Below are positions 2,952-42,748 of a stretch of 64,000 bases of DNA, piece after piece. The translations under genes were made by a program, and so were the position numbers. The notes beneath the pieces were generated by a model. It was not told where the DNA came from, ran no database searches, and was given only the letters and a program-made list of their open reading frames with translations. The DNA comes from an uncultured Pseudomonadota bacterium (lineage in GTDB: Bacteria > Pseudomonadota > Zetaproteobacteria > Mariprofundales > Mariprofundaceae). The stretch is from positions 1 through 64,000 of the forward strand of contig CAJXLC010000007.1 of assembly GCA_913055645.1 (NCBI GenBank), read 5' to 3'. Every line of letters starts with the position of its first letter. The stretch's first letter is position 1.

Positions 2952-4188
2952 CCACCCTTAAAAGCGAAGCCACTTGTTCAATAGCACATACCTGTTGCTC
3001 ACCTGTTGCCAAGTTTTTCAATGCAACGACGCCTTGCTGAACCTCATTATCACCCAGAACAGCAACAAATAACGCACCTTCTCGGTCTGCAAATTTAAAT
3101 TGTTTCTTCGCTGCACCACCACCTGCATGCAACACAGCAATACCAGTGGCACGTAATTGACTGGCTACTTGCAATGAGTAAGGCAATGCGCCATCACCCA
3201 AAGCAACAACCACAACATCCACACCTTGCTTATCATCATCCGGCATCAGCATTGCCAAACGCTCCATACCTGCTGCAAAACCAACAGCTGTCGTTGCAGG
3301 GCCACCCAATGATTCTACCAAACCATCGTAACGCCCTCCAGCCAATACCGTTCCCTGTGCACCAAGCTGATCAGTCACAAATTCAAAGGCGGTACGATTA
3401 TAATAATCCAAACCACGTACAATGCGCGGGTTCACTTCATAGCGTACGCCCAACGCATCCAAGCCTGATTTCAAACCTGAAAAGTGCGTTTCGCAATCAC
3501 CACACACATGAGCCACCATTTCTGGGGCATCGGTAAGCTGAGCTTGGCATGATTCATTTTTGCAATCGAGCACACGCATCGGGTTTTTCTCAATTCTATC
3601 ATTACAGGTGGCACACAATGATTCAGCACGTGCATGTAAATACGCAACCAAGGTCTCACGGTATGCGGGGCGACATGCCGCACAACCCAGTGAGTTAATC
3701 TCCAAACGCACCTTTTCAATACCCAATTCATCCAAGAACCCTTGTGCCATACCCAGCATTTCCGCATCGCCTACAGGGCCATTGACAGCAAACCATTCCA
3801 CACCAATTTGTTGAAACTGGCGCAAGCGCCCTTTTTGCGGACGCTCCCGACGAAACATTGGTCCCATATAAAACCAACGTTGTGCGCCTGCTCGTGTTAA
3901 ACCTGCTTGCAAATAAGCGCGAACCGCTCCTGCCGTACCTTCCGGACGCAAGCAAATATTGTCACCGCCTTGATCTTCAAAAGCATACATTTCTTTGGAT
4001 ACAATATCCGTTTCTTCACCCACAGAACGTACAAAAAGCTCTGTCGGCTCTAAAATTGGCAACCGCACTTCCGAAACGGCGTGTGTTGCAAATACTTTGC
4101 GCGCCACATCTTCAATCTTGCGCCACTTAGAAACTTCTACTGGCAAACCATCATGAATACCGCGAATACTTTGTAATTTCTTAGCCAT
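2941..4188 (-). CDS. hisS: histidyl-tRNA synthetase
   Basis: This class II synthetase charges tRNA-His. Visible landmarks are LRPEGTAGAVRAYL, motif 2 (MFRRERPQKGR), the HisRS-specific RGLDYYNRTAFEF, motif 3 region GGRYDGLVE with GFAAGMERL, and a C-terminal anticodon-binding domain. At about 415 residues it has the normal length. I chose the ATG at 4188 (MAKKLQSIRGIHD) over the ATG at 4209, because the latter would add seven residues inside ispG and the family starts just before the QxIRGxxD motif. The ispG stop is one base upstream, so ispG and hisS share a transcript. Confidence 0.97.
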   Translation of the reverse strand: MAKKLQSIRGIHDGLPVEVSKWRKIEDVARKVFATHAVSEVRLPILEPTELFVRSVGEETDIVSKEMYAFEDQGGDNICLRPEGTAGAVRAYLQAGLTRAGAQRWFYMGPMFRRERPQKGRLRQFQQIGVEWFAVNGPVGDAEMLGMAQGFLDELGIEKVRLEINSLGCAACRPAYRETLVAYLHARAESLCATCNDRIEKNPMRVLDCKNESCQAQLTDAPEMVAHVCGDCETHFSGLKSGLDALGVRYEVNPRIVRGLDYYNRTAFEFVTDQLGAQGTVLAGGRYDGLVESLGGPATTAVGFAAGMERLAMLMPDDDKQGVDVVVVALGDGALPYSLQVASQLRATGIAVLHAGGGAAKKQFKFADREGALFVAVLGDNEVQQGVVALKNLATGEQQVCAIEQVASLLRVVKV

Positions 4189-4189
4189 C

Positions 4190-5287
4190 TTATTCTTCTT
4201 TCTCAGCACGAATCACAGCAGCGCGCTTTTCTACTTCTTCCACTAAAGAATCAATCATATTAGACGATTTTACACGACCGAATTTTTCACCATCATGGTA
4301 AAAAGTATGCGTTGGATAACCACCTGTAATACCCACTTGCACCTCTTGGGCTTCACCAGGTCCATTTACCACACAGCCAATCACCGCGACATCAATGCTT
4401 TCCTGAATATGTGCCAAACGTCCTTCCAATTCTTGCACTGTTTCAATGACATTAAACTTTTGCCGCGCACAAGATGGGCAAGCAATCAAATTCACCCCAC
4501 GATGCCGCAAGCCAAGGCTTTTTAGAATTTCAAAGCCAACTTTAATCTCTTCTTTTGGCTCAGCAGCTAAAGAAACACGAATGGTGTCACCAATACCATC
4601 GGCAAGAATCAAACCAAGTCCAACTGATGATTTCACTGTACCACCAAACAAGCTGCCTGATTCTGTGATGCCCAAATGAAATGGGTAATCAACCTTTTCT
4701 ACCAATTTACGATAGGCAGCAACTGTCATTGGGATATTACTCGCCTTGAGAGAGACTTTGATATCATTAAAATTCATATCTTCAAGAATACGAATATGCC
4801 GCATTGCCGAAGCCACCATGGCATCAGCACAAGGTTCGCCATATTGCTCGTTAAATTCTTTTTCGAGTGAACCTGCATTCACCCCTATACGAATCGATAC
4901 ATTCTTTTCTTGTGCTGCCTTCACCACACGCTCAACCCTATCTTGGCTACCAATATTACCAGGATTCAAGCGCAAGCCATGCACACCCGCATCAAGTGCC
5001 AACAAAGCCATTTTATAACTAAAATGAATATCAGCAATAATCGGCACATTCGTTTGCGCTAAGATTTCAGGCATCGCCGCTGCTGAATCAGCATCTGGCA
5101 CAGAAATACGCACAATATCCGCGCCCGCTTCTTCCAACGAATGCACTTGAGCTACCGTCGCATCAATATCGGTGGTTAAGGTGTTGGTCATCGATTGCAC
5201 AGCTATCGGCGCATCCCCGCCAATAGCCACATCACCGACCATAATTTGCCGCGTTTTGCGGCGTGGCATCACTATCGTATCACGCAT
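4190..5287 (-). CDS. ispG: 4-hydroxy-3-methylbut-2-en-1-yl diphosphate synthase
   Basis: IspG (GcpE) makes HMBPP in the non-mevalonate isoprenoid pathway and carries a [4Fe-4S] cluster. The 365-residue protein has the short bacterial form. The TIM-barrel half has PIAVQSMTNTLTTD and IVRISVPD; the cluster ligands are in LIACPSCARQKFN and VIGCVVNGPGEA near the C-terminus. The ATG at 5287 is used here; a second ATG six codons on (MPRRKT) is equally possible. The order TPR protein-ispG-hisS resembles the pilF/rodZ-ispG-hisS order of gammaproteobacteria. Confidence 0.96.
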   Translation of the reverse strand: MRDTIVMPRRKTRQIMVGDVAIGGDAPIAVQSMTNTLTTDIDATVAQVHSLEEAGADIVRISVPDADSAAAMPEILAQTNVPIIADIHFSYKMALLALDAGVHGLRLNPGNIGSQDRVERVVKAAQEKNVSIRIGVNAGSLEKEFNEQYGEPCADAMVASAMRHIRILEDMNFNDIKVSLKASNIPMTVAAYRKLVEKVDYPFHLGITESGSLFGGTVKSSVGLGLILADGIGDTIRVSLAAEPKEEIKVGFEILKSLGLRHRGVNLIACPSCARQKFNVIETVQELEGRLAHIQESIDVAVIGCVVNGPGEAQEVQVGITGGYPTHTFYHDGEKFGRVKSSNMIDSLVEEVEKRAAVIRAEKEE

Positions 5288-34245: not shown

Positions 34246-35466
34246 TTGAATAAAGTTATGCTTGCACGCCAACCTATTTTTGATGCTCATCAAAAGACTT
34301 ATGCTTATGAGCTGTTATACCGTGGTGAGAGCATGGATATTGATGATGATGCCATGACATCCACGGTTTTAAGCAACACACTCAATCGTTTTGGCATCGA
34401 AAAAATGACACATGGCAAAGTCAGCTTTATCAATCTTTCCAAGTCATTTCTACTCAGTGACCTACCCGACATTCTTCCACAAGATGCAACCGTTTTAGAA
34501 GTGTTAGAAGATGTGCCAGCCGATAAAGAAGTTATCGCAGCCATTCAGCACTGGAAAGAGCAGGGGTTCACGGTGGCATTGGATGACTTCATCAGCATTA
34601 CATCTGATCATATGAAGCTCTTGCCTTATGTTGATATTGTAAAAATTGATATTCTCGACTGTGTGGAGCCTTTAGATGTTGTTGTACAAGAAATCCGCAA
34701 ATTTCCTATAAAACTTTTGGCTGAAAAGGTGGAAACATACGAGGAATATGAACTTTGCAAGAAACTTGGCTTTGATTATTATCAAGGCTATTTCTTTAGC
34801 AAACCTACGGTGATCATTAATAGCCATACATTGGAAACCAGTAAGTCTCAGCTATTGCAATTATTAAGCCGTGTTTTGGAAGCTGAAAGCCCCAAGGAAC
34901 TCGAAACTGATATTGCCCATGATATCACGCTGTCATACAAGCTACTTTGTTACATCAACTCAGCATCTGTCGGCTTAAAAAAGAAAATCGACTCTATTGG
35001 TCATGCCTTAACATTGCTCGGCTTAAAGAAACTGCGCGCATGGATTTCCATGATGCTAATGGCTTCCTTATCAACAGGAAAGCCAGATGCCCTGCTCGCC
35101 CTTTCATTTACGCGTGGACGCTTCTTGGAACAACTCGCCCTAGCCAAACAAGATGACAAACATAGCAATGATTATTTCATACTGGGTATGTTTTCTTTAT
35201 TGGATGCCTTCCTTGACCAAGATATTGGGCATGCCGTTGAATCTGTAACATTACCCAAGCTTGTCTACGAAGGTTTGCTAAACAACGCTAGTAAAGCGAA
35301 CTGTCACTTACGTTTGATTCAAGCTTTGGAACAAGGTGATTGGACTCAAGTCGATACATTATGTGATACAGTCGAGGTTGATAGCGAGCAAATTATGTCA
35401 CTTTATACTGAATCCATTCAGTGGTCTGATGAGAGGCTTGCCACAATTCATTCGCTGTCAGCATGA
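34246..35466 (+). CDS. EAL-HDOD signalling protein (degenerate EAL)
   Basis: The 406-residue protein starts at TTG 34246 (AAGG eight bases upstream; an ATG four codons later is possible). The N-terminal EAL-like domain begins MLARQPIFDAHQKTYAYELLYRG, so the catalytic EAL triplet reads YELL. The later LDDFIS, VKIDI and LAEKVETYEE are kept, but several metal ligands look lost, so hydrolysis of c-di-GMP is doubtful. The C-terminal HDOD domain (about 195-400) has ITLSYKLLCYINSAS and GLKKLRAWISMMLMA. Such YuxH/CdgJ-type proteins affect motility by protein contact. It has its own sigma-54-type promoter. Confidence 0.88.
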   Translation: MNKVMLARQPIFDAHQKTYAYELLYRGESMDIDDDAMTSTVLSNTLNRFGIEKMTHGKVSFINLSKSFLLSDLPDILPQDATVLEVLEDVPADKEVIAAIQHWKEQGFTVALDDFISITSDHMKLLPYVDIVKIDILDCVEPLDVVVQEIRKFPIKLLAEKVETYEEYELCKKLGFDYYQGYFFSKPTVIINSHTLETSKSQLLQLLSRVLEAESPKELETDIAHDITLSYKLLCYINSASVGLKKKIDSIGHALTLLGLKKLRAWISMMLMASLSTGKPDALLALSFTRGRFLEQLALAKQDDKHSNDYFILGMFSLLDAFLDQDIGHAVESVTLPKLVYEGLLNNASKANCHLRLIQALEQGDWTQVDTLCDTVEVDSEQIMSLYTESIQWSDERLATIHSLSA

Positions 35467-37307: not shown

Positions 37308-38350
37308 GATGCACCTCCGTGTATCTTATGAATAAGTTCAGCAGCTAGCATGCCATCTTGACTACCCGCTTGTGCCTGAAACATCGGCATGTCATCAACC
37401 CACAACATACTTGGTTCAGATTCACTGACTTTTAAAGGTAAATAATCACCTGACGATAGACTTAGAAATTGCCCAACATTCATTTCGCACTGCCCCATCT
37501 CTAAACGCATGGTGATAGGGACATCATTCAAAGCGACCTGCAATCGTTGTTCCCATTCCTGATCCACAGATGTCGGTTCATCACTCATGGTTGAGCGTAA
37601 ATTGTCCAACATAGGTTCAAGAAATGTTCGTGGGTAATGCAAAGCAAACATGCCCTTCACATCCTCATTCAATTGAATTTCAAACTGCATCGAAAAGCAT
37701 GCATCATGCGCGCTTGCTACCGACAAAAACTGTGGGTCTGTATCGATTTTAAATAATACAAAATCTAGAATCGTGACTGGTTTCCATACCTTTTCTAGAT
37801 GCATTTCTAAACTCTGAGCAATACGTTCAGACAGGCTTTTTTCCACGGGAGATAAATCAATAATATCCTCTCCGTAAACTTCTCCATTACCCCCCAACAT
37901 AGCATCCACGTGTGCTACAATGAGGGATAAATCAAAACTCAACATCATCCGTCCAAAGCCCTCCGCCGAATATGCAAAAAATACCTGCGGTTCTTCCGTA
38001 TCAATGACATCACTATAAGGTACTTGGTTCATACTCTGGAAAGTTACCGTGACATCACGATTAAACGTATCCGACCACTGCTCCTTTAAAGCCTCAGCCA
38101 TACGCTCTTGCAAGTTAACAAATAACGGATAACGCGCTGGACCATCACCTCCAGCACTCTCAAATGAAAAATCCTCAATAGTTTCAGGTTGTTTTAGGGG
38201 TGGTAGCGTTGCAAAAAGGGCTTCAACAGTCTCTCCTGGTGCAACACTTGCCACCAAAGCTTCAATCTCTTCAGGCTCAAGTATGGGTTTTGCCTGTGCT
38301 TCTACACCAGCATCTGCCATATCTGCATCAGCATTCGCATCATCTGTCAT
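37304..38350 (-). CDS. fliM: flagellar motor switch protein FliM
   Basis: The 348-residue protein has a CheC-like middle domain (PLFVNLQERMAEALKEQWSD, SAEGFGRMMLSFDLSLI, IDLSPVEKSLSERIAQSLEM) and a C-terminal SpoA domain (LQVALNDVPITMRLEMGQCE, FLSLSSGDYLPL). The N-terminal CheY-binding peptide (LSQxEID-type) is not clear: the region reads LEPEEIEALVASVAP, a degenerate match. FliM sets rotation sense. Confidence 0.92.
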   Translation of the reverse strand: MTDDANADADMADAGVEAQAKPILEPEEIEALVASVAPGETVEALFATLPPLKQPETIEDFSFESAGGDGPARYPLFVNLQERMAEALKEQWSDTFNRDVTVTFQSMNQVPYSDVIDTEEPQVFFAYSAEGFGRMMLSFDLSLIVAHVDAMLGGNGEVYGEDIIDLSPVEKSLSERIAQSLEMHLEKVWKPVTILDFVLFKIDTDPQFLSVASAHDACFSMQFEIQLNEDVKGMFALHYPRTFLEPMLDNLRSTMSDEPTSVDQEWEQRLQVALNDVPITMRLEMGQCEMNVGQFLSLSSGDYLPLKVSESEPSMLWVDDMPMFQAQAGSQDGMLAAELIHKIHGGAS

Positions 38351-38862
38351 TGCGATACAAAGTCAGTAAAAAACATTTTCTTCACAGGTTTATATGGGGG
38401 GAACCCTTTGTTAATACGGAAAACCAATTCTTCCTTTAGGGCTGTCTTACCTGCTGGTGTCTTAATATCATCAAACTTTTTGCCTGATATAATCGTAATA
38501 ATTTTATCCTTCACCGTTGCCAAACCAACTGTAGAGCTTAATCTCACTTTGTCTTCTTCGGTGCGCAAAATAAGCAATATTTTAGTACGTAAAAAACGAC
38601 CGTTATCCGCCAAATTAATGGTGAGACCATCAATTTCCATTTCAATAGGTACAGCATCAGGGTCTTCAACCTCTGCTTCAGGCAGTTTGGTTTCCGCAGT
38701 TTGCGTCGGCGCTGTATCAGTAGCTTCCGTAGGCTGATTATTTTGTAACAATGTCCATGCTACAAAACCACCCACACCTAAAACCAATACCAACAATACC
38801 GTATTGATAATCGGCAATAAACCACCTGATGATTTTTTCTCTTCTTTTTCCTCATCAGCCAT
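38347..38862 (-). CDS. fliL: flagellar basal body protein FliL
   Basis: About 171 residues: short cytoplasmic Lys/Glu-rich tail, one membrane segment (LLPIINTVLLVLVLGVGGFV), a Thr/Glu/Ala linker, then the periplasmic FliL domain (NLADNGRFLRTKILLIL ... VKDKIITIISGK). It surrounds the stator units and stabilises them. ATG 38862 has AAGGAG seven bases upstream; the ATG two codons earlier has poor spacing. Confidence 0.9.
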   Translation of the reverse strand: MADEEKEEKKSSGGLLPIINTVLLVLVLGVGGFVAWTLLQNNQPTEATDTAPTQTAETKLPEAEVEDPDAVPIEMEIDGLTINLADNGRFLRTKILLILRTEEDKVRLSSTVGLATVKDKIITIISGKKFDDIKTPAGKTALKEELVFRINKGFPPYKPVKKMFFTDFVSQ

Positions 38863-38915
38863 TTGCATACTCCTTCATATTTTATCTGTTTTTTCACACA
38901 TACAGCAATGCCATA

Positions 38916-39617
38916 TTATTTGTACAAAACAATCTCAACCCGTCGATTACGACTACGCCCAAAAGGTGTTGCATCGGTCGAAACAGGGCGCGACGGTCCA
39001 TAACCTGCCAATGACAAACGCGATGAACTTACGCCTTCTTCCTCTAAGATACGCAAGACTGATGCCGCACGTGCCAATGTCAGACTCCAAGGGTCTTGAT
39101 AGCGACTATCTAGGATGTATTTAAAGTGTGTATCTGAATGTCCATTCACTTGAATTTTACCAGGTGACACTGCCAACATACTTGCAATTCTTCGCAATGC
39201 TTTGATGTTTTCAGGCTTAAGCTCTGCAGAACCCTCATCGAACATCACTGCATCATTAATCCGTAAATACAAACGATCTTTGACAATCACACCTTTCACT
39301 TTATGCTCTAAGGTACTGTTTTGTAATACAACATGACTATTTTGACGCATGGCTAACATCAATTCTCGCGGCGTAACTGCGCGCTGTAGTTCTGAAGGTG
39401 GAATTAAATTAATTTCAGTTCTTTCACCAGCATTTAACACCGATACGGCTTTTTGAAAATATGTCGAAATGTCCTGCAAACCTGTTTGATCCAACGTAGA
39501 CATCGATACCAACAAAATGAAAAACGTCAGCATCAAACTCACCAAATCTGCAAATGTTGTCATCCATGCTTCTGGGTCAGGCTTGTAAACAACAGGCCAT
39601 TTCTTTTTCCTAGCCAT
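38916..39617 (-). CDS. motB: MotB-type stator protein with canonical aspartate
   Basis: The 233-residue protein has one membrane helix with the proton-binding Asp24 in WMTTFADLVSLMLTFFILL. The OmpA-like peptidoglycan-binding domain has YLRINDAVMFDEGSAELKPE, VNGHSDTH and a C-terminal GYGPSRPV ... RSRNRRVEIVL. It anchors the stator and, with MotA, conducts ions. It directly follows a second motB-like gene (one-base gap). Confidence 0.92.
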   Translation of the reverse strand: MARKKKWPVVYKPDPEAWMTTFADLVSLMLTFFILLVSMSTLDQTGLQDISTYFQKAVSVLNAGERTEINLIPPSELQRAVTPRELMLAMRQNSHVVLQNSTLEHKVKGVIVKDRLYLRINDAVMFDEGSAELKPENIKALRRIASMLAVSPGKIQVNGHSDTHFKYILDSRYQDPWSLTLARAASVLRILEEEGVSSSRLSLAGYGPSRPVSTDATPFGRSRNRRVEIVLYK

Positions 39618-39618
39618 A

Positions 39619-40392
39619 TCAGAAACCTCTCTTCGGTGGTGCTACCGCAGCCCGATCACCACCCGATAAGCGGACACCGCTCTTATTCTCAGGGTTGGCT
39701 GTAACAGGTCTAAATTTCAAAGTTATTTCCACACGTCGACTCAAGTCTGGATGGTTAGGAATCGGATGTTTATCTCCCATACCCGCCACAATCATACGAG
39801 TATTGGCAACGCCACGCTTGGACAAAGCATGAAAAACACTCATGGCACGTGCCGCAGACAACTCCCAATTCGATGGGTATAAGGAACTGTTCATTGGCTT
39901 ATCATCCGTATGCCCTTCAATACGAATTTCAATTACTTCGGGACGAGAAAAAATAGCCGCCAACTTATCCATCAAAGGTTTACTTTCAGGTGATAAATCA
40001 ACATGACCAGATGCAAAAGCAATCCTCTCTGGAAGCCGAACACGCACTTTATCTTCACCCAATGGAATCGCATTCATACCATCAACTCCCAACGCCTTCG
40101 ACACCTCCGTCAATTCTTTGGCGGTTCGTTTGGGCGCACGAGAGCCTTCAATAATATCACGAGCAGGCATAGCTGGTCCTTTGCCTTGAGCAAGGTTTGC
40201 CCCTTTCTCCAAGGGACTGAATGTCCCAGCCAATGAACCCAATGCTGCTAATCGTTTTTCTTCCACAATCACCGCCATTGATGTTAGCAAAATAAAGAAT
40301 GCTAACATTTGCATCATCAACTCAAGAAATAAGGCTGCTCCAATATCCTTGGGAGGATCAATGGGATTCGGTTTTTTATCTCGTTTAGCCAT
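39619..40392 (-). CDS. second MotB-type protein with glutamate at the ion-binding position
   Basis: The 257-residue protein has a MotB-like anchor helix IGAALFLELMMQMLAFFILL. The position of the essential aspartate is Glu24 (FLEL against FADL in the neighbour). The C-terminal OmpA-like domain is intact: RIAFASGHVDLSPESKPL, IRIEGHTDDKPM, and GMGDKHPI ... LSRRVEITL. It sits between motA and the normal motB, four bases after motA. It could be a subunit of a mixed stator, a MotY/MotD-like helper, or a working stator with altered ion handling. Confidence 0.85.
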   Translation of the reverse strand: MAKRDKKPNPIDPPKDIGAALFLELMMQMLAFFILLTSMAVIVEEKRLAALGSLAGTFSPLEKGANLAQGKGPAMPARDIIEGSRAPKRTAKELTEVSKALGVDGMNAIPLGEDKVRVRLPERIAFASGHVDLSPESKPLMDKLAAIFSRPEVIEIRIEGHTDDKPMNSSLYPSNWELSAARAMSVFHALSKRGVANTRMIVAGMGDKHPIPNHPDLSRRVEITLKFRPVTANPENKSGVRLSGGDRAAVAPPKRGF

Positions 40393-40395
40393 GAT

Positions 40396-41154
40396 TTAAT
40401 CGAACGCGGACACACGTTCCTTGGGAGGTAAATAGCCAAGTAGCTTCTGCTCCATTACACGCGGGTTTTCACCGGCTACCAATGATTGGATACCTGTTAA
40501 AATAATTTCTAGCACCAACATCTCTTCCGTACTGCGTGTTTTTAACTTACCTGCCCATGGCAAGAATAAAATATTGGCTAACAAAGCCCCGTAAAATGTG
40601 GTTAATAATGCCACAGACATCGATGGTCCAATGGATGACGGATCCGACATATTGGATAACATCAATACCAAGCCCACCAACGTACCAATCATACCCATGG
40701 ATGGCGCGTAAGTTCCGCAAGCAGTCAACATATCTGCGCCTTCAAGATGTCGACCCGATATTTTATCCATTTCCATATATAAAATATCTTCTATTTCAGA
40801 AGGCTCCTGACCATCAATTGCCATTTGCAGACCTTTGACCATAAATTCGTTTTCGATATCACCAACTTTACTTTCCAACGCCAAAATGCCGTCTTTACGA
40901 ACCACCTGCGCCAACTCAACAAGCTCAGCAATCACATCCTTACCTGCCTGAACTTTGTACATAAATGTCTTAAGAATAATACCAATCAGTCCAATAACCT
41001 TTTGCAATGGGTAACCAACTAGAATAACCCCAATGGTTCCCCCAACCACAATCATCACAGATGGAACATCCACAAACCCCATTAACCCATCGCCAATGGC
41101 GAATCCAACCAAACCAAATGCAACTAAAATACCTATGACTGTTGCTATATCCAC
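40396..41154 (-). CDS. motA: MotA-type stator protein
   Basis: The 252-residue protein has four membrane segments. It begins DIATVIGILVAFGLVGFAIG with VMIVVGGTIGVILVGYPL, and has ACGTYAPSMGMIGTLVGLVLML and VALLTTFYGALLANILFLPW with the conserved Pro/Thr/Tyr of the ion channel. Starts at GTG 41154 five bases after AGGAGG. First gene of the motA-motB-motB-fliLMNOP operon, with a sigma-54-type promoter about 70 bases upstream. Confidence 0.95.
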   Translation of the reverse strand: MDIATVIGILVAFGLVGFAIGDGLMGFVDVPSVMIVVGGTIGVILVGYPLQKVIGLIGIILKTFMYKVQAGKDVIAELVELAQVVRKDGILALESKVGDIENEFMVKGLQMAIDGQEPSEIEDILYMEMDKISGRHLEGADMLTACGTYAPSMGMIGTLVGLVLMLSNMSDPSSIGPSMSVALLTTFYGALLANILFLPWAGKLKTRSTEEMLVLEIILTGIQSLVAGENPRVMEQKLLGYLPPKERVSAFD

Positions 41155-41359: not shown

Positions 41360-42748
41360 TTAACGTTTAATTTGCATCAACGATGAAAGCATCTGGTCGG
41401 TGGTCGTAATAGTTTTGGAATTCGCTTGATAACCACGTTGAATAACAATTAACTTCACAAATTCACCTGCCAAATCCACATTGGACTGCTCCAAACCAAA
41501 CGGTGTAATCGAACCCATACCACCATTACTTGGTTTTTCCAGAACTGGTGAACCTGAAGCAATAGTTTCCTGCTGTAAGTTATTACCTATATGAGACAGC
41601 ACCGATGGGTTCGGAAAGTTTGCCAGTGCTACCTGGAACAATCCACGCCTCTGACCATTCGTAAATGATCCAAATATTCTCCCTGTTGAATCAGTTTCGA
41701 GCTTATCAAGGAAGCCTGCCGCAAAGCCATCAGTTTTCATTTCACGTGTCGCAAATGAACCTGCCATCTGAATAGTACCATTTAAACCAGTACCTACCTG
41801 AGGAGTACCAATCGTAAGTGAGCCTTGGGCGTCTGTTGTTATAGCATCCCCAAAGTTAAAGCCCAGCGTACTAGCTACAGCGCTACCCCATGGGAAATTC
41901 GAGGCTCCTACTAAGGTTTCACTATTTAAAGCACCCGCTGTATCATAGCTAAGTGTGCCCTGGGCTCCAATAAAGGTTGTTCCAGCAGTACCTGCAGCAG
42001 TCGTCGCGCCAAATGCATCTGCAGACCCCGTTGTAATCTCGCCTCCATCAACACCCGCATACCAATTCCATTGATTTGCAGCGGTTTTAACGTAATAAGT
42101 ATTCACTGAATGCTGTTGACCAAGCGAATCAAACACATTCACTTGTGTTTTATAATTATATGTTGTCGGAGATGCTGGATCAAAGTTGCCTTGCGCACCA
42201 GAAACTGAACCTACAATCGGAGTAGCATTTGAATCCAAAGAAACGCCCACATTTATAATTGTTGTCGGGCTCGCTTGGGCTGCTAAGTTAGAAAATGTAA
42301 TATCCTTAACATTGCCAACTGCCTGCTGTGTCGCACTATCCAACCCCCAACCTTGTACAACAAAGCCTTGCCCATCGATCAAATTAGAATTTTTATCCAA
42401 AAAGAATGCGCCTGCACGCGTATACGATGTTTGACCACTGGCTGGATCTTTCAGCGCAAACATTCCTTTACCATTAATCGCCATATCGGTCGGATTCGTT
42501 GTATTTTGAATCGACCCCTGCTGTGAATCACGTGTAATTTGTCCAATACGCACGCCATTACCCACTTGATTAGCAATATTGGAACGTGTCACACCTACCG
42601 TTTGTGATAACACATCTGAAAACACCACATTTTGCGATTTAAACCCCAATGAGTTCACATTGGCAATATTATCGCCAACCACACGTACCGCTTCACCAAA
42701 CGCTGATAATCCACTGGAACCTGTAAAAAGCGCATTATAAATACCCAT
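41360..42748 (-). CDS. flgE: flagellar hook protein FlgE
   Basis: The 462-residue protein begins MGIYNALFTGSSGLSAFGEA with the motif GDNIANVNSLGFKSQNVVFS and the core MAINGKGMFALKDPASGQTS. The C-terminus is FVKLIVIQRGYQANSKTITT. The variable surface domain accounts for the middle ~250 residues. It polymerises into the hook on the FlgD cap. flgD lies 36 bases upstream and a terminator follows. Confidence 0.96.
   Translation of the reverse strand: MGIYNALFTGSSGLSAFGEAVRVVGDNIANVNSLGFKSQNVVFSDVLSQTVGVTRSNIANQVGNGVRIGQITRDSQQGSIQNTTNPTDMAINGKGMFALKDPASGQTSYTRAGAFFLDKNSNLIDGQGFVVQGWGLDSATQQAVGNVKDITFSNLAAQASPTTIINVGVSLDSNATPIVGSVSGAQGNFDPASPTTYNYKTQVNVFDSLGQQHSVNTYYVKTAANQWNWYAGVDGGEITTGSADAFGATTAAGTAGTTFIGAQGTLSYDTAGALNSETLVGASNFPWGSAVASTLGFNFGDAITTDAQGSLTIGTPQVGTGLNGTIQMAGSFATREMKTDGFAAGFLDKLETDSTGRIFGSFTNGQRRGLFQVALANFPNPSVLSHIGNNLQQETIASGSPVLEKPSNGGMGSITPFGLEQSNVDLAGEFVKLIVIQRGYQANSKTITTTDQMLSSLMQIKR

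Follow-up and report, generated by a model that had tools for sequence, protein, structure and literature searches.

The window, by which we mean the whole stretch of 64,000 nucleotides analyzed here, corresponds to contig C7 of a 1.88-Mb genome (99.5% complete) from an uncultured member of the Zetaproteobacteria. Its minus strand carries a flagellar operon in the order flgE-like gene, motA, motB1, motB2, and fliL, followed by fliM-, fliN-, fliO-, and fliP-like genes. The motA gene, both motB genes, and fliL were assigned with Pfam profiles, and the remaining genes of the operon were named by eye from their translations. The features considered below are as follows.

41360 to 42748, minus strand: flgE-like hook gene upstream of motA (translation, by eye, without family search)
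40396 to 41154, minus strand: motA (PomA-like), the single A subunit gene of the operon, GTG start (Pfam MotA_ExbB, 3.3e-29)
39619 to 40392, minus strand: motB1, MotB paralogue lacking Asp at the ion site, 257 residues (MotB_plug, 24 bits; OmpA, 62.3 bits)
40321 to 40323, minus strand: Glu24 codon of MotB1, GAG, aligned with the stator Asp (sequence and plug profile alignment)
38916 to 39617, minus strand: motB2, MotB with Asp24, 233 residues (MotB_plug, 61.7 bits; OmpA, 64.8 bits)
39546 to 39548, minus strand: Asp24 codon of MotB2, GAT (sequence)
38347 to 38868, minus strand: fliL, adjoining motB2 downstream, stator associated (Pfam FliL, 1.4e-16)

The arrangement of one motA followed by two MotB-type genes, proposed in a preliminary description of this DNA, was confirmed at these coordinates, with motA and motB1 separated by 3 bp and motB1 and motB2 by 1 bp. 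The sequences of MotB1 and MotB2 are ALFLELMMQMLAFF and FADLVSLMLTFF, respectively. The best NCBIfam match of MotA was PomA (NF006527), with a score (267 bits) below the cut-off (341 bits). MotA has Thr158, Thr185, and Thr186 of PomA, which we take to matter for sodium in that protein, and these shared residues hint weakly at a sodium-type stator, the PomA cut-off being missed and a clostridial MotA in the same comparison also having the TTFYG stretch. The genome encodes a third MotB, with Asp in the core YLDLMTLLLALF, adjoining a second motA (G000, contig C20, 37522 to 39113; L002, 527 to 2142), and MotA of this second type occurs in 20 further genomes of the class. Near the operon, on the opposite strand, lies an EAL-HDOD-like signaling gene (34246 to 35466; by eye). 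The flgE-like neighbor looks similar, again by eye, at a locus of another phylum (L207).

Residues 24 to 58 of MotB1 aligned with positions 24 to 58 of the MotB_plug profile. Since residue 24 thereby falls on profile position 24, Glu24 lies in the register of the Asp. The membrane core (residues 18 to 43) contains no acid besides Glu24, and the alternative of another Asp in the ion register was rejected because there is none and the profile pairs 24 with 24. The peptidoglycan-binding domain of MotB1 is whole by profile (OmpA PF00691, 5.9e-17, profile positions 2 to 93 of 98), and its predicted fold comes closest to those of the MotS and PomB periplasmic domains; the AlphaFold model is modest (mean pLDDT, 67.7) and is silent on partners. 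These results agree with the preliminary description, which had assigned Glu24 to the upstream MotB, Asp24 to the downstream one, and an intact peptidoglycan-binding domain to the former. Among the features of the MotB family, MotB1 has the plug (barely, with 24 bits for a cut-off of 24), the C-terminal OmpA-like domain, and a gene located directly after motA; the ion-site Asp is absent, its place being taken by Glu24 in the window. MotB1 fell below the cut-offs of the NCBIfam equivalogs for MotD (97 versus 283 bits), MotS (89 versus 264 bits), and LafU (34 versus 383 bits), and both MotBs were below the cut-off in all of their 25 listed NCBIfam matches.

Conservation of the locus was surveyed in 78 genomes of the class, in which a strong match was defined by E values below 1e-90 for MotB1 and below 1e-100 for MotA. 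Strong matches to MotB1 and MotA were obtained in 54 and 53 genomes, respectively, so that MotB1 as a peculiarity of a single metagenome-assembled genome (MAG) was rejected. The closest named relatives of MotB1 among the matches listed are Zetaproteobacteria, including Mariprofundus ferrooxydans PV-1 (L076). All 53 genomes with a strong full-length MotA of this type contain MotB1. The 54th MotB1 genome (G026) is without a strong MotA, and its motB1 begins 15 bases from the contig start. Genome G038 has a 75-residue MotA fragment at a contig end (1.8e-29) without a strong MotB1 match, an exception that a gap in this 80% complete genome may explain. The remaining 23 genomes have neither protein as a strong match. 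MotB1 and MotB2 co-occur, in the same order, in 54/54 genomes with MotB1. In 31 of the 53 genomes, including G017 (100% completeness), the MotA of the tandem set is the sole MotA match at an E value of ≤1e-20, a search that a very different MotA could escape; the tandem set may therefore be the only stator of these bacteria. Genome G009, a MAG with 8% contamination, has two motA-motB1-motB2 copies on different contigs (L046 and L006).

The 54 genomes thus provide 55 motB1 genes, of which 51 specify Glu at the site (L158 being counted as Glu in the codon tally), 4 specify Gln (G066, G044, G042, and G016), and none specifies Asp; MotB2 has Asp in 55/55. Glu is encoded by GAA (27 genes) or GAG (24 genes), and the 19-residue membrane core of MotB1 differs in DNA sequence among all 55 genes but has just 7 protein forms, which argues that Glu is selected and is due neither to error nor to chance. 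A pseudogene or a sequencing error was also rejected, as no stop occurs within the strong matches and both Glu codons are used. MotB1 remains under strong purifying selection. Its residue 28 covaries with the site, Glu24 occurring with Gln28 and Gln24 with Ile28. Invariance in MotB1 extends furthest within the membrane helix. This speaks against MotB1 as a passive scaffold, placed outside the rotating axle and paired with either MotA or FliL in assembly or cell wall anchoring, although the periplasmic domain also has invariant columns. Such a scaffold, for which speaks the position of fliL next to motB2 in the window and directly after motA at four other loci (L207, L209, L212, and L213; by eye), seems to us highly improbable.

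To compare the membrane helices, 84 tandem pairs were used, comprising 54 from Zetaproteobacteria, 6 from Nitrospirota, and 24 from the phylum of locus L094. The set excludes L163 and L158, which are halves of the G069 gene, and L177, in which the profile did not align the site. In MotB2, Asp at the site (position 0), Trp at position −6, and Ser, Thr, or Asn at position +3 were each present in 84/84 pairs. In MotB1, the corresponding counts were 0/84 for Asp, 6/84 for Trp, and 3/84 for Ser or Thr, and position +3 was Met in all 54 zetaproteobacterial pairs. By these alignments, MotB1 is mostly devoid of the polar residues of the putative ion path, the Glu lineage included. A comparison set of 69 single MotBs was prefiltered for Asp and may include MotB2 from tandem loci; the unfiltered count is that of the 66 single-MotB loci described below. 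At position −1, which is a MotB-MotB interface in E. coli (PMC10659934), MotB1 has Leu (Zetaproteobacteria) or Val (5/6 Nitrospirota) versus Ala or Gly in MotB2, the difference being small in the phylum of L094. This difference in bulk would fit the packing of unlike partners, a hint that holds at the level of groups, of which there are three.

An intact peptidoglycan-binding domain combined with the loss of most ion-path residues is also what would be seen if two separate stators were formed, MotA and a MotB2 homodimer acting as the motor and MotA and a MotB1 homodimer acting as a competitor for sites around the rotor that idles, regulates, or brakes. Units containing MotB D24N do partly assemble in the motor of Borrelia burgdorferi (PMC6663468). 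A brake would nonetheless be expected to be lost or separately regulated somewhere, and the two genes were found together, in the same order, in every zetaproteobacterial genome with MotB1. This observation is not decisive, and we regard separate stators as unlikely.

A scan of named genomes, incomplete as a census, gave at least 73 loci outside the Zetaproteobacteria (L080 to L152). Of these, 66 have one MotA and one MotB, with Asp in 66/66; 3 are tandem sets whose first MotB has Ser, Ala, or Gly (L082, Nitrospirota; L090, Troglogloeales; L094, "Deltaproteobacteria"); 2, both from Aquificota (L108 and L143), are tandem with Asp in both MotBs; and in the last 2, no MotA was found within the locus. 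In Nitrospirota, the phylum of L082, a MotA match was present in 117/198 sampled genomes. Thirty loci were read, among which 23 have a single MotB with Asp, 1 lacks MotB, and 6 are tandem, the MotB1 site being Ser in 4, Ala in 1, and unaligned by profile in L177 (Ser by eye). To these tandem sets the genome of L090 contributes an Ala-type MotB1. At L090, a putative open frame (3602 to 5041) encodes a MotB2 that has a membrane helix and an OmpA domain and is preceded by an additional OmpA-like stretch.

The phylum of L094 includes L102 (Desulfarculus sp.) and L093 (Syntrophobacteria) and is hence Desulfobacterota by titles, L094 being placed under Myxococcota in the rank list. A MotA match was found there in 115/247 sampled genomes, and the best 30 loci comprise 24 tandem sets, 1 cut locus with Ala, and 5 loci without MotB beside motA. 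In the 24 tandem sets, the MotB1 site is Ser (12), Ala (8), Gly (2), Asn (1), or Thr (1), and MotB2 has Asp throughout. The Desulfarculus genome also has a tandem set with Ser (L294). In the five genomes with a lone motA, two tandem MotBs, each with Asp, are encoded at another place. These pairs (L283 to L287; G317, G491, G442, G467, and G488) lie ~15 to 17 kb from the searched motA in four genomes and on another contig in G488. At L207, L209, L212, and L213, fliL-like and fliM-like genes directly follow motA (by eye). In a sample of 398 genomes of Pseudomonadota, 99 had a MotA match at 1e-75, and MotA scores above 300 bits were confined to the class of the window. Outside that class, 19 loci were read from the 46 genomes with a match: 17 have a single MotB with Asp, 1 is tandem (L265), and 1 lacks MotB. 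In L265 (G534), motA is followed by two Asp-type MotBs that are mutual nearest neighbors in the tree, as in a recent tandem duplication.

Loss of Asp was also seen in the Marinimicrobia phylum, in which a genome of Candidatus Marinimicrobia (L115; G854) encodes tandem MotBs, with Ser and then Asp, beside a more distant MotA (L307). A MotA match was present in 76/149 sampled genomes of this phylum, and 20 loci were read (L309 to L328). MotB1 has Ser in 6 and Asp in 14, and MotB2 has Asp in all 19 loci showing it. Locus L322, whose Ser-type MotB1 is 71% identical to an Asp-type MotB1, belongs to an otherwise Asp-type MotA clade (100/100), indicating that Asp was lost at least once in this phylum, apart from the MotB1 proteins of other phyla; the tree requires at least two changes between Ser and Asp. 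Asp can thus be lost while the motB1 gene is kept largely unchanged. Counting each locus once, the second MotB has Asp in 114/114 tandem pairs (55 from Zetaproteobacteria, 7 from Nitrospirota, 24 from the phylum of L094, L294, 19 from the Marinimicrobia phylum, the 5 pairs of the lone-motA genomes, 2 from Aquificota, and L265). Loss of Asp was observed in MotB1 and in no MotB2 read.

In a tree of 144 MotBs, 52 of 53 MotB1 proteins from three phyla formed one group (SH-aLRT, 80; 96 for a part of 46 rows), the long-branched L211 falling outside. A reduced tree, from which L211, L177 and L167 (partial MotB2), and L173 (a copy of L082) were omitted, placed 49/49 MotB1 proteins on one side of a branch (SH-aLRT, 84), with the Asp/Asp pairs elsewhere. 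As the MotB1 proteins of three phyla group together, the arrangement looks old and stable. When the membrane columns were removed, together with L211 and rows of fewer than 120 residues, the MotB1 label required three changes instead of one. Shared membrane residues therefore contribute to the grouping, and a single origin of MotB1 is not firm. A careful MotA tree, built without L211 and L227, recovered the zetaproteobacterial proteins as one clade (100/100), in which the Glu clade (100/96) is sister to the Gln clade (97/88), and resolved the order no deeper; the earlier proposal that Gln is basal, which rested on quick MotA and MotB trees, was dropped.

These comparisons bear on the possibility that MotB1 conducts ions through Glu24, by itself or jointly with Asp24 of MotB2, at a changed affinity or speed. 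The prevalence of Glu in Zetaproteobacteria with use of both Glu codons, the paired change at residue 28, and the reduced motility retained by Asp-to-Glu MotB mutants (PMC6663468) speak for this possibility. Yet Gln is present in a sister lineage within the class, Ser, Ala, or Gly occupies the site in Nitrospirota and in the phylum of L094, and the Ser or Thr at position +3 is replaced by Met in Zetaproteobacteria. The Glu conservation considered in the preliminary description was therefore verified within the class, apart from the four Gln genes, and did not extend beyond it, since Glu is not the rule in Nitrospirota and in the Desulfarculus-containing phylum, where Ser and Ala predominate with a few cases of Gly, Thr, and Asn. 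Because these relatives have no acid at the site and the Ser or Thr at +3 is gone, a carboxylate would not be needed for the function of the family. Glu as a needed carrier was rejected as the general explanation, and its acting as a carrier at all seems to us quite unlikely. Of the interpretations initially put forward, a mixed stator or auxiliary B subunit fits well with an adjacent Asp-bearing MotB2 and one common MotA, whereas altered ion use is not favored and is possible for the Glu clade only. The invariance of Glu together with Gln28 suggests that Glu does something in that clade, where it may matter.

Our preferred reading, which we hold to be probable, is that a MotA pentamer surrounds a MotB1/MotB2 heterodimer in which MotB2 is the ion carrier and MotB1 a structural or tuning partner. 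One type of MotA would associate with two nonequivalent B subunits, the pentamer enclosing a heterodimer instead of a MotB homodimer. MotB2 (Asp24, Ser27, and Trp18) would carry the ion, and MotB1 would complete the axle with its own membrane helix and add another anchor to peptidoglycan, ion carriage not being required of it. We infer the MotB1-MotB2 pairing, the lack of ion carriage by MotB1, and an effect on motor speed or torque from sequence comparisons. The heterodimer would fit well with the co-occurrence of the two proteins, with the presence of one MotA for two MotBs encoded at intervals of 3 and 1 bp, and with the asymmetry of the MotB1 and MotB2 residues. MotB D24N is nonmotile in B. 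burgdorferi (PMC6663468), and MotD D23A has the phenotype of a motD deletion in Pseudomonas aeruginosa (PMC12288467), so that a stator with MotB1 as its only B subunit would be expected to fail when the site is Ser, Ala, or Gln. As MotB1 is kept with MotB2 in lineages with Gln, Ser, Ala, or Gly, in which a MotB1-only stator would be dead, the heterodimer would be the simplest account.

Asp-less MotB is dominant negative beside the wild type in E. coli, Salmonella, and perhaps P. aeruginosa (PMC12288467), and an axle with one Asp would therefore need compensation. Tandem MotBs do not in themselves imply such an axle, since Asp persists in 14/20 MotB1 proteins of the Marinimicrobia phylum, and Asp/Asp pairs occur in Aquificota and in the five lone-motA genomes of the phylum of L094. 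More speculatively, these proteins could form natural "one-Asp" stators in which only MotB2 binds the ion, with ~5 ions per turn versus 10 and larger steps, that is, a low-consumption gear of the 5:2 motor that evolved more than once and is present in at least four phyla; we consider this extension possible but doubtful.

The MotB Asp has been called universally conserved, and an ancestral reconstruction of MotB retained only FAD, YAD, or LAD sequences (PMC7787011), a filter that would leave out MotB1-like proteins. Another study inferred the B subunit from its position beside motA (PMC12505986), a choice that could select MotB1 in genomes of this type. If both MotBs do belong to one stator, they would offer a natural mixed-axle motor for asking whether both ion sites of the 5:2 complex must work. 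A standing question on stator mechanism would then become testable by comparing the existing versions, which have Asp, Glu, Gln, Ser, Ala, or Gly at the site.

ExbD and MotB are kin, and TonB systems with two ExbD paralogues beside ExbB (ExbD1 and ExbD2; gene names only) resemble the present arrangement, although they are not flagellar. The gliding motor AglR/AglQ/AglS of Myxococcus likewise combines one MotA-like subunit with two MotB-like subunits (PMC9120999 and PMC9389320), a likeness by description, without sequence comparison; whether its MotB-like subunits form homo- or heterodimers is given as not known in PMC9389320. In Aquifex aeolicus, one motA is followed, as in the window, by two adjacent motB genes of the same operon with very different periplasmic parts, the membrane and N-terminal regions being 97% identical with Gly/Ser20 as the sole difference (PMC4525482). 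Tandem motB genes and the combination of two MotB-like proteins with one MotA-like protein are thus already known, from Aquifex and from the Myxococcus gliding motor, respectively; in a search of the open-licence literature, no description was found of flagellar operons that retain an Asp-less MotB next to one that has Asp. In contrast to the Asp/Asp tandem loci of Aquificota, the pair in the window is Glu24/Asp24. MotA and MotB2 of the window align nearly full length with the PomAB and MotAB stators of 5:2 stoichiometry (PDB 8bri, 6ysf, and 6ysl). Unlike those stators, in which the B subunits are all alike and have Asp, the operon in the window adds a second B subunit without it.
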